A stretch of DNA of 11,049 nt from Gammaproteobacteria bacterium. Lineage in GTDB: Bacteria; Pseudomonadota; Gammaproteobacteria; Competibacterales; Competibacteraceae. The translations under genes and the position numbers were made by a program. The notes beneath the pieces are model-generated. The model made no database searches, had not been told where the DNA came from, and saw nothing but the letters and a program-made list of their open reading frames with translations. The stretch covers positions 1-11,049 of the forward strand of contig JAIFNF010000064.1 of the NCBI GenBank assembly GCA_020047885.1, in the 5' to 3' direction. This document shows, piece after piece, positions 2,806-7,002 of this stretch (position 1 is the stretch's first letter; every line of letters starts with the position of its first letter).

Positions 2806-3240
2806 ATGCAGATGCACATCCTTGAATCGCTTGAAGCAAGTGAAGACACCGTCATTGGCAAGATGGCGCGCGGCTCCTCCGCCAAACGGGCTTCGACCCT
2901 GATGAATTATGGCAATGTGATTGCGATCCTGATTCCCTTTCCGCTGCTGATCTTCTGGTTTGGCGCATCGATGCTGGTCTATGCCATGAACCGCCACCAC
3001 CCCAATCCTAAAGTCGGGCACTATACTCAACAGGCGGCTTACCGTTTCTACGGAATTACCGGCTTTTTTATCGTGGCTGCGACCTTCATCCCGGGCGGCG
3101 GCTGGATCTGGCATTTTTTGGCCTGGATCCTGGCGGCGCTGATCCTGATTCCCTGGTCAATTATTGATCTGCGGCGCATTCACCGGGATGAATGGATGGA
3201 TATCCCACTGGATGACCAGGGTCATCCCTTAACCCGTTGA
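2806..3240 (+). CDS. Small integral membrane protein of unknown function
   Basis: I do not recognise a family. The 144-residue protein has a polar N-terminus (1-35, with a basic ARGSSAKRAS stretch), a hydrophobic segment at about 37-61, a polar loop rich in His, Asn and Pro (62-75), a second hydrophobic segment at about 81-95, and a third at about 100-121 with several Trp. The tail is charged and ends LTR. Two or three membrane spans with no signal peptidase site suggest an inner-membrane protein. The start at 2806 follows AAGG after ten bases; an ATG two codons later is possible. It opens the rightward run and ends only nine bases before the cobalamin-binding protein, so the two are probably cotranscribed, which hints at a shared context but not a function. 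Confidence 0.75.
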   Translation: MQMHILESLEASEDTVIGKMARGSSAKRASTLMNYGNVIAILIPFPLLIFWFGASMLVYAMNRHHPNPKVGHYTQQAAYRFYGITGFFIVAATFIPGGGWIWHFLAWILAALILIPWSIIDLRRIHRDEWMDIPLDDQGHPLTR

Positions 3241-3249
3241 TAGAGCCTG

Positions 3250-3972
3250 ATGAACACCTACGATCCACGGCGAGCCAACATCGGCGACCGGCCTGGTTTG
3301 AACGCTGAGTCGGATTTACCGGCGTTCTATCGCCAGATGCCTACCCCTGATCGGGAAAGTCCCGCTTTCGCCGAGGCGTTGCTGGCCGGGAATCAATGCA
3401 CCGCACGCAACATTGTGAATGGTCGGCTGGATGCTGGCGTTGACCTGATCGAAGTGGACGTCGCTGTGATGCAACCGGCGCTGTATGAAGTGGGCCAGCG
3501 TTGGCAACATAACCGGATTTCGGTCGCGCAGGAACATCTGGCGACGGCAATTTGCCAGACGGTGCTGGCAGGCGCGCTGCTGCGGGTCGAACCTGCGCCA
3601 TTTTGTGGCCAGCGGGGGCTGTTCGCCTGTGTGGAAGGCAATTTTCATGCGCTGGGGCTGCGTATGGTGGCTGACGCCTTTGAACTGGCCGGTTGGGAGA
3701 GCGCTTATCTGGGCGCTGATGTGCCGAATACGGCGTTGCTTGAGCAGATCGCGTCCACCCGTCCGGATGTCGTAGGGCTATCAGTTTCCCTGCCGCAGCA
3801 GGTGCTAAAGGTACGGGAACTCATTCGTATGTGCCGGATTGAACTGGGCGCACAGTGTCCCCCCATCATGGTGGGCGGACTGGCGATGAACAGCGTCGAT
3901 GATCTCTGGCGGCGTGTCGAAGCTGATGTCTGGTATCCCGACGCGCGGTCTGCCCAGCGTGAGGTGTTATGA
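3250..3972 (+). CDS. Cobalamin-binding sensor protein, CarH/AerR-like
   Basis: This 240-residue protein looks like a free-standing B12-binding module: a helical cap (about 38-115) followed by a Rossmann-type cobalamin domain (about 122-236). In the cap, W85 is followed by exactly nine residues and then E95-H96, matching the W-x9-EH signature of CarH-type adenosylcobalamin photoreceptors. In the Rossmann part, EGNFHALG (129-136) corresponds to the ExDxHxxG lower-ligand loop, keeping His133 and Gly136 but with Asn131 in place of the usual Asp. GLSVSL (176-181) and MVGGLAMN (207-214) correspond to the SxL and GG motifs that cradle the nucleotide tail. There is no MerR-like DNA-binding domain; the first 36 residues are polar. 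The stop overlaps the next ATG by four bases, so it is coupled to a diguanylate cyclase, its likely output partner. Alternatives are a corrinoid carrier or a haem-binding SCHIC-type domain. B12 binding is likely; light sensing is inference. Confidence 0.85.
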   Translation: MNTYDPRRANIGDRPGLNAESDLPAFYRQMPTPDRESPAFAEALLAGNQCTARNIVNGRLDAGVDLIEVDVAVMQPALYEVGQRWQHNRISVAQEHLATAICQTVLAGALLRVEPAPFCGQRGLFACVEGNFHALGLRMVADAFELAGWESAYLGADVPNTALLEQIASTRPDVVGLSVSLPQQVLKVRELIRMCRIELGAQCPPIMVGGLAMNSVDDLWRRVEADVWYPDARSAQREVL

Positions 3973-4970
3973 ACCAGTTGGTCCGTTCTCTCGAAGACTT
4001 GGGATTGCCGCCGTTCCTGCAGGAATTGAGCAGCGTCGTCATTGCGTTGCTTGATGAGAACGGTCATGTCCTGGCCGCGAATCGAGGGTTTCTGCGCATG
4101 TCCCCGCCGCCGGAAGTTGGCGGCGAACCCTGGGATGTGCGTTCGCTGTTCGTCAATCCCCGCCTGGAGGATGTACAGGCGCTGGTGCCGTACCATGGCG
4201 GTGCACTGCTGTTGTATCGGGGGATTTTGAATGTCGCCCACGACGACCAACCCTGCCGCTCCTTGCAGGGGCATATCTATCGGTGGCAGCAGGGGCGGTT
4301 GCTGGTGGCGGCGGAATATGATGTCGAAGGTTTGGAAATGCTCGGCGCGACCGTGATGCAACTTAATGAAGAGCTGGCCGAGACCCAGCGGCAGTTGTTG
4401 CGCGCCAATCGGGAATTGAAGCGTAACGAAGTAACCATTCGTGAGTTGATGCATACCGACACGCTCACCGGGGTCGGCAATCGGCGGCGACTGGACGAGG
4501 CGCTGGCGGCTGAAGTCGAGCGGGGACGGCGGTATGGCGATGCCTTTTGCCTGTTGATCACGGATCTGGATCATTTCAAGGAAGTGAATGACCGCTACGG
4601 CCACACCGTCGGCGACGACGTGCTGAAACAGTTTGCGGCGCTCCTGCGCGAGCATTGTCGGCAGAGCGATCTGGTGACCCGCTTTGGCGGCGAGGAGTTT
4701 GTGTTGCTGCTGCCGGATACGGATTTGACCAGCGCGGTCGCCTGTGCGGAGCGGATTCGTCACCATCTGGAATCCCAACCCCTGACGCCGCAAGTCAACC
4801 GGATTACCGCGAGCTTCGGCGTGGCGATGCTGACTACCGATGAGGAAGGCGGCGATTTGTTGCGACGGGCGGATCAGGCGCTGTACCGCTCTAAAAAGGA
4901 AGGCCGCAACCGCGTCACCCAATCCATTGCGCCGGGACAAAACGCCGCCCCAGATACCGGGTGCTGCTAA
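3969..4970 (+). CDS. PAS-GGDEF diguanylate cyclase
   Basis: Predicted to make cyclic di-GMP from two GTP in the cytoplasm; no membrane segment is visible. The 333-residue protein has a PAS-like sensor region (about 18-115, with ALLDENGHVLAANRGF), a probable coiled-coil linker (about 125-160, rich in Glu, Leu and Gln) and a GGDEF domain (about 160-320). The active-site signature is GGEEF (240-244), preceded by D199 in the metal loop TDLDHFK. An inhibitory-site RxxD (RQSD, 231-234) sits five residues before it, so product feedback inhibition is expected. The start overlaps the stop of the B12-binding gene in ATGA, with GAGGTG as ribosome binding site, implying translational coupling and comparable amounts of both proteins. 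The GGDEF domain ends about 15 residues before the C-terminus, which finishes in Cys-Cys. The PAS ligand cannot be told from sequence. Confidence 0.93.
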   Translation: MNQLVRSLEDLGLPPFLQELSSVVIALLDENGHVLAANRGFLRMSPPPEVGGEPWDVRSLFVNPRLEDVQALVPYHGGALLLYRGILNVAHDDQPCRSLQGHIYRWQQGRLLVAAEYDVEGLEMLGATVMQLNEELAETQRQLLRANRELKRNEVTIRELMHTDTLTGVGNRRRLDEALAAEVERGRRYGDAFCLLITDLDHFKEVNDRYGHTVGDDVLKQFAALLREHCRQSDLVTRFGGEEFVLLLPDTDLTSAVACAERIRHHLESQPLTPQVNRITASFGVAMLTTDEEGGDLLRRADQALYRSKKEGRNRVTQSIAPGQNAAPDTGCC

Positions 4971-5768
4971 ATGCCGCTTTATACCTCTACCGTTGGCGAA
5001 GGACCGGATGTGGTGCTGGTACATGGCTGGGGGATGCACTCCGGCGTCTGGGAAGATGTCGTGGAGGGTCTGGGCGATCATTACCGGGTGACGGTGCTGG
5101 ATTTACCCGGCCATGGCCATAGCGATCCGCTGCCCGTTGTGCAGGTCCCCCCCTTTGAAAAAGGGGGGTCAGGGGGGATTTCGCACTGGGCAACGGCGGT
5201 ATTGGCCGCGACGCCGGCTCCAGCCACCTGGATCGGTTGGTCACTGGGCGGACTAGTCGCGCAGCAGGTGGCCTTGATCGCGCCGGAACGGGTCAGCCGA
5301 CTGGTGCTGGTCAACAGTACGCCCTGCTTTGTCCAGCGCCCTGACTGGCCGTATGGCCAGGCGTTTGCGGTGTTGCGCCGCTTCGCTGAAGAGTTGCGTC
5401 AGGACTATCGGGCGGTACTCAAGCGATTTATTGCCCTGGAAGTGCATGGCAGTGAACACGCCAGCGCCCAGTTAAAGCAGTTGAAAGCGATGCTGTTTCA
5501 ACATGGCGAACCGGCAGTAGCCGCGCTGGAGGAGGGACTGGCGATTCTGGAAACCACGGATCTGCGGACTCAGTGGCCACGGATTCAATGTCCGGTACTG
5601 TTGTTGATGGGGCAGCGCGATCAACTGGTTCCTGTTGGGGCAGGCGAAGCGATGTTGCCGCAGTTGCCAGACGCTCGGCTGCATGTCTTTCCCAAGGCCG
5701 GCCACGCGCCGTTCTTCTCGCACTTGCCGGAATTTCTGGCGGAACTTAGAGCCTTTCTCCATGAATGA
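4971..5768 (+). CDS. bioH: Pimeloyl-ACP methyl ester carboxylesterase BioH
   Basis: BioH is a cytoplasmic alpha/beta hydrolase that removes the methyl group from pimeloyl-ACP methyl ester, ending the pimeloyl stage of biotin synthesis. The 265-residue protein has the oxyanion-region HGWGMHSGVW (18-27), DLPGHGHSD (44-52), nucleophile elbow GWSLGG (Ser91), acid Asp217 in GQRDQLVP and His245 in GHAPFF. The start codon abuts the diguanylate cyclase stop directly, and the gene overlaps bioC by eight bases. Residues 59-70 (VPPFEKGGSGGI) are encoded by a palindromic G/C-rich repeat inserted in frame between GHSD and the helix before the nucleophile elbow. The closest remembered relative, E. coli BioH, has no such stretch and is a few residues shorter. 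The catalytic triad is complete, so activity is plausible. The neighbouring bioC strongly supports this identity over a generic hydrolase. Confidence 0.93.
   Translation: MPLYTSTVGEGPDVVLVHGWGMHSGVWEDVVEGLGDHYRVTVLDLPGHGHSDPLPVVQVPPFEKGGSGGISHWATAVLAATPAPATWIGWSLGGLVAQQVALIAPERVSRLVLVNSTPCFVQRPDWPYGQAFAVLRRFAEELRQDYRAVLKRFIALEVHGSEHASAQLKQLKAMLFQHGEPAVAALEEGLAILETTDLRTQWPRIQCPVLLLMGQRDQLVPVGAGEAMLPQLPDARLHVFPKAGHAPFFSHLPEFLAELRAFLHE
5147..5181. repeat. Palindromic G/C-rich repeat inside bioH
   Basis: A perfect 9-bp inverted repeat (CCCCCCTTT at 5148-5156, AAAGGGGGG at 5160-5168, loop GAA) is followed by TCA and a second run of six G (5172-5177), then ATTT. This G6-TCA-G6 arrangement is a dispersed repeat I associate with intergenic DNA in several bacterial groups, from memory. 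Here it lies inside a coding sequence and keeps the frame, adding a Pro-Pro-Phe-Glu-Lys-Gly-Gly-rich loop. No other copy is visible in this window. Confidence 0.8.
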
Positions 5769-6657
5769 CGGCAGGGAAGATTTACCATTCCAACCCGACC
5801 CATACTGGCTGCGTCAGGTGTTCGAGTGGGCGGCGGGGCATGATGACGACGCGGCGTTTCTGCTGCGTGAAGTCGGTCATCGGCTGCTGGAACGGCTGGA
5901 CTGCATGAACTTCCAGCCGGAGATGATTCTTGATGTCGGCTGTGGAACCGGCCTCATCACTACCCAGTTGATGAAGAAATATCGCAAGGCGCGGGTCTTC
6001 GGGCTGGAACGGGCGCTGGCGATGGTCAAAAAAGCCCGCAAACGCGCCCCCTGGTTCCGTACCCTGCATGGACTATGCGCTGAACCGGAGGCGCTACCAC
6101 TGGCGGATGCCCGCTTCGATCTCATCTTCTCCAATCTGGCTCTGCCCTGGACGGTTGATCTGGATCGGACGCTGGCGGAATTTCGCCGCCTGCTCAAACC
6201 GGGTGGTGCACTGCTGTTCAGCACCTTGGGGCCTGATACCCTGACCGAATTACGGCGCAGTTGGACAGCAGCCGACGATGGTTATAATCACGTCAACGTC
6301 TTTCTCGATATGCACGACATCGGCGACGCCCTTTTGCGAGCAGGGCTGGCGGAACCGGTGATGGATGTCGAACGGCTGACTCTCACCTACCCGAATATTG
6401 AACGCCTGGCGCAGGATCTCCGCCAGATGGGTGCCCGTAATGTGACCCTGGGACGTTCCGCCACGCTAACCGGCAAGGGGCGCTGGCAGGCGGTGCGGGA
6501 CGCTTACGAGCGCTATCGCCGTGCAGATAGTCTGCTGCCGGTTAGTTGCGAAGTGGTCTATGGCCACGCCTGGGGAGCGTTGCCGAATCAGGCGTGTTCC
6601 TCCAGCGAAGGTCCGGCGTTTTTCCCGCTATCGCAACTGCGTCGGCGCGGTTCATAA
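5761..6657 (+). CDS. bioC: Malonyl-ACP O-methyltransferase BioC
   Basis: BioC methylates the free carboxyl of malonyl-ACP using S-adenosylmethionine, disguising it so that fatty acid synthesis can build the pimeloyl chain; BioH later removes the methyl. The 298-residue protein has the SAM motif ILDVGCGTG (56-64), GLERA (81-85) in place of the acidic motif II, the NLALPW stretch (125-130), LKPGGALLFST (145-155) and the BioC-typical DMHDIGDALLRAGL (183-196). The frame is open back to 5635, but the ATG at 5761 is chosen because family similarity starts there and it overlaps the bioH stop by eight bases, a usual coupling arrangement. bioD does not follow; the next gene is unrelated, so the biotin pathway is split across the genome. 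The C-terminal 30 residues are less conserved in appearance. Confidence 0.95.
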   Translation: MNDGREDLPFQPDPYWLRQVFEWAAGHDDDAAFLLREVGHRLLERLDCMNFQPEMILDVGCGTGLITTQLMKKYRKARVFGLERALAMVKKARKRAPWFRTLHGLCAEPEALPLADARFDLIFSNLALPWTVDLDRTLAEFRRLLKPGGALLFSTLGPDTLTELRRSWTAADDGYNHVNVFLDMHDIGDALLRAGLAEPVMDVERLTLTYPNIERLAQDLRQMGARNVTLGRSATLTGKGRWQAVRDAYERYRRADSLLPVSCEVVYGHAWGALPNQACSSSEGPAFFPLSQLRRRGS

Positions 6658-6714: not shown

Positions 6715-7002
6715 ATGGCAAATGAAGGTTATCACGAGCCGATTAGTGAACTGTCTGATGCGACACGGGATATGCATCGGGCGATTATCTCATTGATGGA
6801 GGAATTGGAAGCGATTGACTGGTACAACCAGCGTGTCGACGCCTGTCAGGACCCGGAACTGAAAGCGGTTCTGGCGCATAACCGCGATGAGGAAAAGGAA
6901 CACGCGGCGATGGTGCTGGAATGGATTCGCCGCAAAGACCCGGTATTCGACCATGAGCTGAAGGATTATCTGTTCACTAATAAACCTATTGCCCACGGCT
7001 AG
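6715..7002 (+). CDS. Encapsulated-ferritin-like protein (EncFtn) without targeting tail
   Basis: EncFtn proteins are short two-helix ferritin-fold ferroxidases that form an annular decamer, oxidise Fe(II), and are normally housed inside an encapsulin shell. This 95-residue protein carries the family core MEELEAIDWYNQRVDA (28-43) and AHNRDEEKEHAAMVLEW (54-70). By alignment in memory with the Rhodospirillum rubrum protein, the ferroxidase ligands are Glu30, Glu60 and His63, and the metal-entry residues are Glu29, Glu32 and Trp36; all are present. The chain ends soon after the LFTNKP segment (86-91). It lacks the C-terminal extension with a hydrophobic cargo-loading peptide, and no such peptide is found beyond the stop. 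No encapsulin gene is in the window. Either it works outside a shell, is loaded by another means, or has lost its tail. It has a good ribosome binding site and is probably separately expressed. Confidence 0.9.
   Translation: MANEGYHEPISELSDATRDMHRAIISLMEELEAIDWYNQRVDACQDPELKAVLAHNRDEEKEHAAMVLEWIRRKDPVFDHELKDYLFTNKPIAHG

Follow-up and report, generated by a model that had tools for sequence, protein, structure and literature searches.

A globin-less B12 protein and a PAS-like/GGDEF cyclase encoded by overlapping genes in a Competibacteraceae genome: a candidate two-protein light switch

The window, that is, the whole stretch of 11,049 nucleotides that was analysed, carries a same-strand run of genes (up144, the B12 gene, the cyclase gene, bioH and bioC), with comF upstream and divergent. 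The genes of this run, and a site at the junction of two of them, are as follows.

2806..3240, forward strand: up144, encoding a protein of 144 aa for which no Pfam family reaches its cut-off; upstream of the B12 gene in this run
3250..3972, forward strand: the B12 gene, encoding a standalone cobalamin-binding photoreceptor-like protein of 240 aa (photocobilin-type CBD without a globin)
3961..3966, forward strand: GAGGTG, a putative ribosome-binding-like site of the cyclase gene, read from the sequence and lying within the end of the B12 gene
3969..4970, forward strand: the cyclase gene, encoding 333 aa (PAS-like domain, signalling helix and GGDEF diguanylate cyclase)
4971..5768, forward strand: bioH, directly 3' of the cyclase gene with no gap (TIGR01738, 256 bits against a cut-off of 207)
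within 5635-6657, same strand: bioC, after bioH (TIGR02072, 189 bits against a cut-off of 185)

The overlap between the stop of the B12 gene and the start of the cyclase gene that had been noticed in the original prediction is the ATGA at 3969-3972. A block of comF, up144, cyclase and bioH, with or without the B12 gene between up144 and the cyclase gene, is conserved in the family, and up144 (2806-3240) remains in synteny with comF and the cyclase gene throughout the family. Just past bioC, at 6715-7002, lies a gene for an EncFtn-like encapsulated-ferritin domain protein (PF22277, E 7.5e-45). No B12 or c-di-GMP riboswitch was found among RNA elements in the window at the gathering threshold.

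The B12 protein consists of a Pfam B12-binding_2 domain (residues 40-107, E 2.5e-14) followed by a B12-binding domain (residues 123-239, E 9.2e-20). These are the only Pfam families at E<=1, in agreement with the original prediction that the protein has no DNA-binding domain. It carries the complete published light signature (GxxW/EH/GxxH/GxxxP).

3493..3504, forward strand: GxxW of the light signature (G82-Q-R-W85)
3532..3537, forward strand: E95-H96 of the light signature
3637..3648, forward strand: GxxH (G130-N-F-H133), with the predicted lower axial Co ligand (role as given in PMC11796333 and PMC10979010)
3712..3726, forward strand: GxxxP (GADVP, residues 155-159), which completes the light signature

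Every residue of the originally noted pattern, W85-x9-E95-H96 together with H133 (within EGNFHALG), proved correct. All four motifs occur in 62 of 81 aligned B12 proteins (the window's, which is among the 62, and those of 80 loci), and the W, E, H and lower-ligand H are common to all 81. The same pattern had been read as CarH-type, and here the prediction held in part: the W-x9-EH motif and lower-ligand His shared with CarH are present within a full light signature, but the nearest solved structures are photocobilins and not CarH. Further, there is no MerR-type DNA-binding domain, the NCBIfam CarH model scores 48.7 bits against a cut-off of 400, and the His at TtCarH position 132 that gives the bis-His light state is replaced by Gln86, which directly follows W85 (placed by the W-x9-EH spacing). 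This position is discussed in PMC11796333, and Gln there is reported for the photocobilin SasPcob. Membership in the CarH family was rejected on the missing DNA-binding domain and the Gln at 132, with CarH retained as a relative in mechanism. Nor does the protein conform to photocobilins in full, in that its 240 aa include no fused globin-like bilin-binding domain.

The cyclase protein has a Pfam GGDEF domain at residues 162-315 (E 2.2e-46) that includes a GG[D/E]EF site, as expected of a diguanylate cyclase.

3981..4373, forward strand: PAS-like receiver domain 'PASN', residues 5-135 (A3 alignment), encoded beside B12 photoreceptor genes and linked to either a GGDEF or a histidine-kinase output
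4659..4670, forward strand: RxxD inhibitory-site motif (RQSD, residues 231-234)
4686..4700, forward strand: GGEEF active-site motif, residues 240-244

The partner had been described as a PAS-GGDEF protein with intact GGEEF and RxxD. Both motifs are confirmed, and residues 23-118 follow a PAS-like order of strands and helices in an AlphaFold2 model (mean pLDDT 87.3), whereas Pfam PAS families remain below cut-off across the whole protein (best PAS_8, 15.9 of 21.8 bits). The 21 PAS-like members scanned are similar in this respect, with a best E of 0.0023 and matches at E<=0.05 to PAS_4 (3), PAS_8 (3), PAS_9 (1) and PAS (1). In the same model, a helix of 44 residues (119-162) leads into the GGDEF domain. 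The PAS-like domain has no match among PDB sequences at E<=10, the signal of homology between it and the domains of distant partners is weak, and the VIA-align rows for the cyclase mostly span residues 118-332, such that the PAS part is barely covered.

Loci were collected by similarity to the B12 protein alone (168 stretches matched, 141 confirmed, the best 80 of the 141 kept), and every open frame of 60 aa or more was then scored with profiles built here from the globin, the B12 part and the window's own PAS-like and GGDEF domains. A search for co-occurrence of B12 and GGDEF genes had been proposed with the original prediction, and it bore the pairing out: in 44 of the 80 loci the B12 gene is accompanied by one for the PAS-like domain (42 by the window-domain profile, plus L036 and L046 by the A3 profile), all within the closest 46 (L001-L046), a cut that was drawn after the distribution of the domain had been seen. 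The partner output is GGDEF in 21 loci (that of L009 is split by a stop), while the 17 other complete partners among the closest 46 loci are all histidine kinases; 7 of the 46 (L005, L007, L017, L018, L024, L027 and L033) are unclassed due to a contig end, a broken gene or a PAS-like domain that stands alone. Arrangements vary: the two genes are convergent in L021, a single chain of 887 aa (L026:3967-6630) reads PAS-PAS-GGDEF-globin-B12, and in L024 the B12 gene reaches the contig end and the PAS-like domain is found close to the beginning of a second contig from that genome. On a B12 tree of 39 rows (the window, 21 GGDEF loci and 17 kinase loci), the output changes about seven times, with at least three changes forced by well-supported branches.

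Of the 43 genomes behind these loci (that of L029 left out), 42 contain the PAS-like domain, with 43 of 45 matches at the B12 locus, one elsewhere in G429 and one on another contig in G426; these genomes were chosen after the adjacency had been seen, so the count measures exclusiveness and not fresh adjacency. In 369 genomes drawn from the class, the domain was detected in just two, G001 and G029, which both belong to the window's family, with a few misses possible since only 12 candidates were scored in some genomes. No partner in L047-L080 matches the PAS-like profile at 1e-5; partners scanned in 8 of these 34 loci comprise histidine kinases (6), SpoIIE (1) and STAS/PAS proteins (1), and the gene after the B12 gene matches GGDEF in L067 and L077. 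Taken together, the sequence comparisons indicate that the partnership of B12 protein and cyclase is well supported.

Several side observations were made among these loci. The PAS-like domain occurs as an output-less frame beside a globin-B12 gene at L018:2775-3266 (163 aa) and L027:6016-6543 (175 aa), both on contigs that end soon after. A second, distant and globin-less B12 protein (222 and 232 aa) is encoded in G008 and G022 (L090:1468-3466 and L091:302-2247), where it precedes a histidine kinase that weakly matches the PAS-like domain described above; G008 has this second protein and lacks the first sensor. The B12 genes of L043 and L045, both from metagenome bins, group tightly with a betaproteobacterial bin, and their titles (Bordetella parapertussis and Klebsiella pneumoniae, respectively) look unreliable.

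A quite different role, that of a corrinoid methyl-transfer protein of the MtbC/MttC kind next to which the cyclase gene lies by chance, is extremely improbable given that the MtbC-type family model scores 44.2 bits against a cut-off of 215.3, that the W, E, H and lower His are invariant in the 81 proteins and that a PAS-like neighbour recurs at the 44 loci. Additionally, none of 30 neighbour proteins scanned matches a methyltransferase family, the neighbourhood in homologues that had been named in advance as speaking against the prediction.

A protein search yielded 1379 relatives of the B12 protein at E<=0.001. Among the best 120 of these, most are 340-370 aa long with an additional N-terminal domain, which a profile of nine copies identifies as a phycobiliprotein-type globin (phycocyanin alpha, 4.6e-6; AbPcob globin region, 4.1e-5; SasPcob weaker at 0.17). 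Pfam Phycobilisome matches two of the nine copies (best 1.6e-4) and has precomputed matches in 3 of the 120 relatives. In the window's protein and seven close relatives (232-241 aa), the PAFYR junction is kept, both B12 domains are present and the globin domain is absent. In the nearest globin-bearing group (P0008, P0009, P0010 and P0012), a C-x-x-D stretch has its Cys replaced by Phe, whereas P0013, P0014, P0016, P0017 and P0019 retain the Cys; we read this stretch as a probable equivalent of the CXQD motif that photoglobins are said to have (PMC10151467). The globin-less form asks for two changes on the tree, of which well-supported branches force only one, and it may thus have had one origin. 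Because w between the window and G001 is 0.098 over 240 codons, the globin-less B12 gene is, as judged by sequence comparison, under purifying selection and not decaying. Standalone B12 proteins of 214-259 aa with the full light signature also occur in L049, L050, L052, L055, L057, L058 and L079 (titles of Chloroflexota), and the L057 gene is flanked by genes for STAS/PAS proteins.

Loss of a bilin source as the cause of globin loss is not supported by the distribution of heme oxygenase, which is present in G001, was not found in G002 and occurs in 8 of the 27 genomes examined (27 of the 45 behind L001-L046). The G001 enzyme is a single protein of 441 aa (L144:5649-6974, contig C61) in which a heme oxygenase (PF01126, residues 21-213) is followed by a photoglobin-like stretch (residues 260-349), and it possibly acts as a self-loading biliverdin maker; its relatives at E<=0.001 number 174, and the names of some of these point to Competibacteraceae. 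Such a fusion could supply bilin in trans, leaving the switch a two-chromophore photocobilin. This is very improbable: the globin match in the fusion, the sole one in G001, is marginal genome-wide (E 8.6e-4), and the fusion need not be linked to the B12 locus because it lies on a different contig and has so many relatives.

Among 39 genomes of G001's family, a close B12 orthologue was found only in G001 and G002, and distant orthologues (36-38% identity) in five more. The cyclase with its PAS-like domain, whole or as a piece, occurs in 14 of the 39, and the comF/up144/cyclase block is kept without the B12 gene (bioH too, where the piece extends that far). Debris of a globin-B12 gene is readable in G039, G035, G028 and G029, and the sensor was therefore once present there; G039, G035 and G028 occupy three separate places of the cyclase tree, indicating that it was lost at least three times. 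The GGEEF motif is intact in all three genomes with the sensor (the window, G001 and G002), while without it the motif is altered or the gene broken in 9 of 12 (Fisher one-sided p 0.044 for 9/12 versus 0/3, kinship not corrected for). Seven sensor-less copies have altered motifs (G036 GGEKF, G028 NGEKF, G008 GEDGF, G007 GEEEF, G006 GGKRF, G005 DGGEF and G009 GSEEF); a single clade of the cyclase tree (support 80/77) accounts for five of its seven altered copies. In G004 and G029 the gene is broken. Against a reading of sensor loss followed by decay, the motif is kept in three sensor-less genomes (G039, G038 and G035) and P0143 (GSEEF) is encoded on a contig equal in length to that of a globin-B12 protein, which may be one and the same.

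Substitution rates were compared in the same block. Between the window and G001, w is lower for the cyclase gene (0.055) than for up144 (0.084), bioH (0.109) and comF (0.133). In three sensor-less pairs (G006, G007 and G008), w is 0.21-0.35 for the cyclase, 0.16-0.32 for comF and 0.18-0.20 for up144, the cyclase being highest in two of the three and comF in the third. In pairs with one sensor-less member, the cyclase is at 0.130 and up144 at 0.077 (G002-G028), or the cyclase at 0.069, comF at 0.140, bioH at 0.116 and up144 at 0.051 (window-G039). The gene debris in four family genomes and the nine altered or broken cyclases raise the alternative that globin loss broke the photoreceptor and that the window's pair is a remnant decaying as elsewhere in the family; this is distinctly improbable in light of the low w of both genes between the window and G001, the intact signature residues and GGEEF in the window, and the seven relatives that are likewise globin-less and retain both B12 domains.

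Comparison thus shows a conserved partnership, conserved pocket residues, an intact cyclase motif and purifying selection. The reading favoured here, at a probability of about 0.6, is a two-protein photosensory switch in which the B12 protein, acting in trans on the PAS-like domain, sets cyclase activity by light. AdoCbl, which the B12 protein very likely binds, would be held between the four-helix cap and the Rossmann domain, with H133 below the cobalt and W85, E95 and H96 holding the adenosyl group. A light response is likely: green or shorter-wavelength light would break the Co-C bond and the B12 protein would then change its shape or oligomer state. The light product is expected to be ligated by water or hydroxide, as in SasPcob, because Gln and not His occupies the bis-His position. 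The B12 protein would then act in trans on the N-terminal PAS-like domain of the co-translated cyclase, and contact is likely to be made there because this receiver is conserved across output swaps; the signal would pass along the helix and so determine GGEEF activity, and hence c-di-GMP. According to PMC10979010, the cyclase activity of AbDPcob with AdoCbl bound is low in the dark and its turnover is more than 10-fold higher after light, separate photocobilin domains alter the activity of an isolated cyclase domain (AbPcob in a dose-dependent manner), and SasPcob without biliverdin has an effect of reversed sign. By analogy with AbDPcob, light would turn the cyclase on; by analogy with SasPcob lacking biliverdin, the effect of the bilin-less sensor may be of opposite sign. 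Because the N-terminal phycobiliprotein-like globin of most relatives is missing, the window's lineage is predicted to have no red-light input via a bilin carried on the B12 protein itself.

The pair could instead report cobalamin status, with the B12 protein signalling the level of AdoCbl (bound or unbound) to the cyclase and any light response being incidental. AbDPcob with AdoCbl is indeed reported to be less active in the dark than the apo-protein (PMC10979010), and several relatives are, by a reading of their titles, symbionts or Accumulibacter, for which light is doubtful. Still, this reading is unlikely: W85, E95, H96 and P159, which are typical of light-responsive CBDs, are kept, and the globin of most relatives makes sense for light and not for a B12 level. 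Returning to the light switch, a broader proposal is more tentative and falls somewhat short of even odds, namely that the PAS-like domain serves B12 photoreceptors as a dedicated receiver within a modular two-protein relay: a B12 or B12-bilin sensor would dock on it whatever enzyme lies behind, with cyclase and kinase outputs freely swapped. The window's lineage would then have a minimal green-light sensor left after deletion of the bilin half, and sister lineages without the sensor would have let the cyclase decay.

In the literature searched, neither a member without globin that has a separate cyclase of its own nor a PAS-like receiver domain with swapped outputs was found, and the literature searched likewise gave no case of cyclase decay after sensor loss. 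The photoglobin-B12 proteins of Schneider et al. 2022 reportedly couple globin and B12 domains and are said to have a predicted association with signal-transduction domains, gene neighbourhoods included; unlike these, the window's protein has no globin. The terms cobalamin, B12 and vitamin do not appear in the main text of a review of c-di-GMP inputs (PMC8846402). The interpretation originally offered is partly supported, although its statement that no characterised example was known has been overtaken: AbDPcob is a light-activated cyclase (PMC10979010) and control of a cyclase by light through B12 is thus already known.

The photocobilins SasPcob (8j2w/8j2x) and AbDPcob (8j2y), as described in PMC10979010, resemble the B12 protein in their AdoCbl cap and Rossmann module and in a full light signature. 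SasPcob additionally shares the Gln at the TtCarH His132 position and standalone action in trans (in vitro), and AbDPcob shares output to a diguanylate cyclase. Unlike these photocobilins, the window's protein is without a bilin-binding globin and its cyclase is a separate protein reached via the PAS-like domain; moreover, the globin is N-terminal in the window's relatives but C-terminal in SasPcob and AbPcob. CarH/LitR (TtCarH, 5c8d) differ in having a MerR DNA-binding domain, His132 in place of Gln and no cyclase output. The logic of photosensor, coiled-coil helix and GGDEF is shared with bacteriophytochrome-DGC (5llw/6et7) and LOV-DGC (8c05), in which sensor and cyclase form one chain, whereas in the window the sensor is the separate B12 protein. 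If the proposed mechanism is correct, this would be a native two-protein pair of B12 photoreceptor and cyclase, whose sensor and enzyme could be combined, titrated and exchanged at will, and which would reveal the contribution of the bilin domain, nature having already made the bilin-less version.
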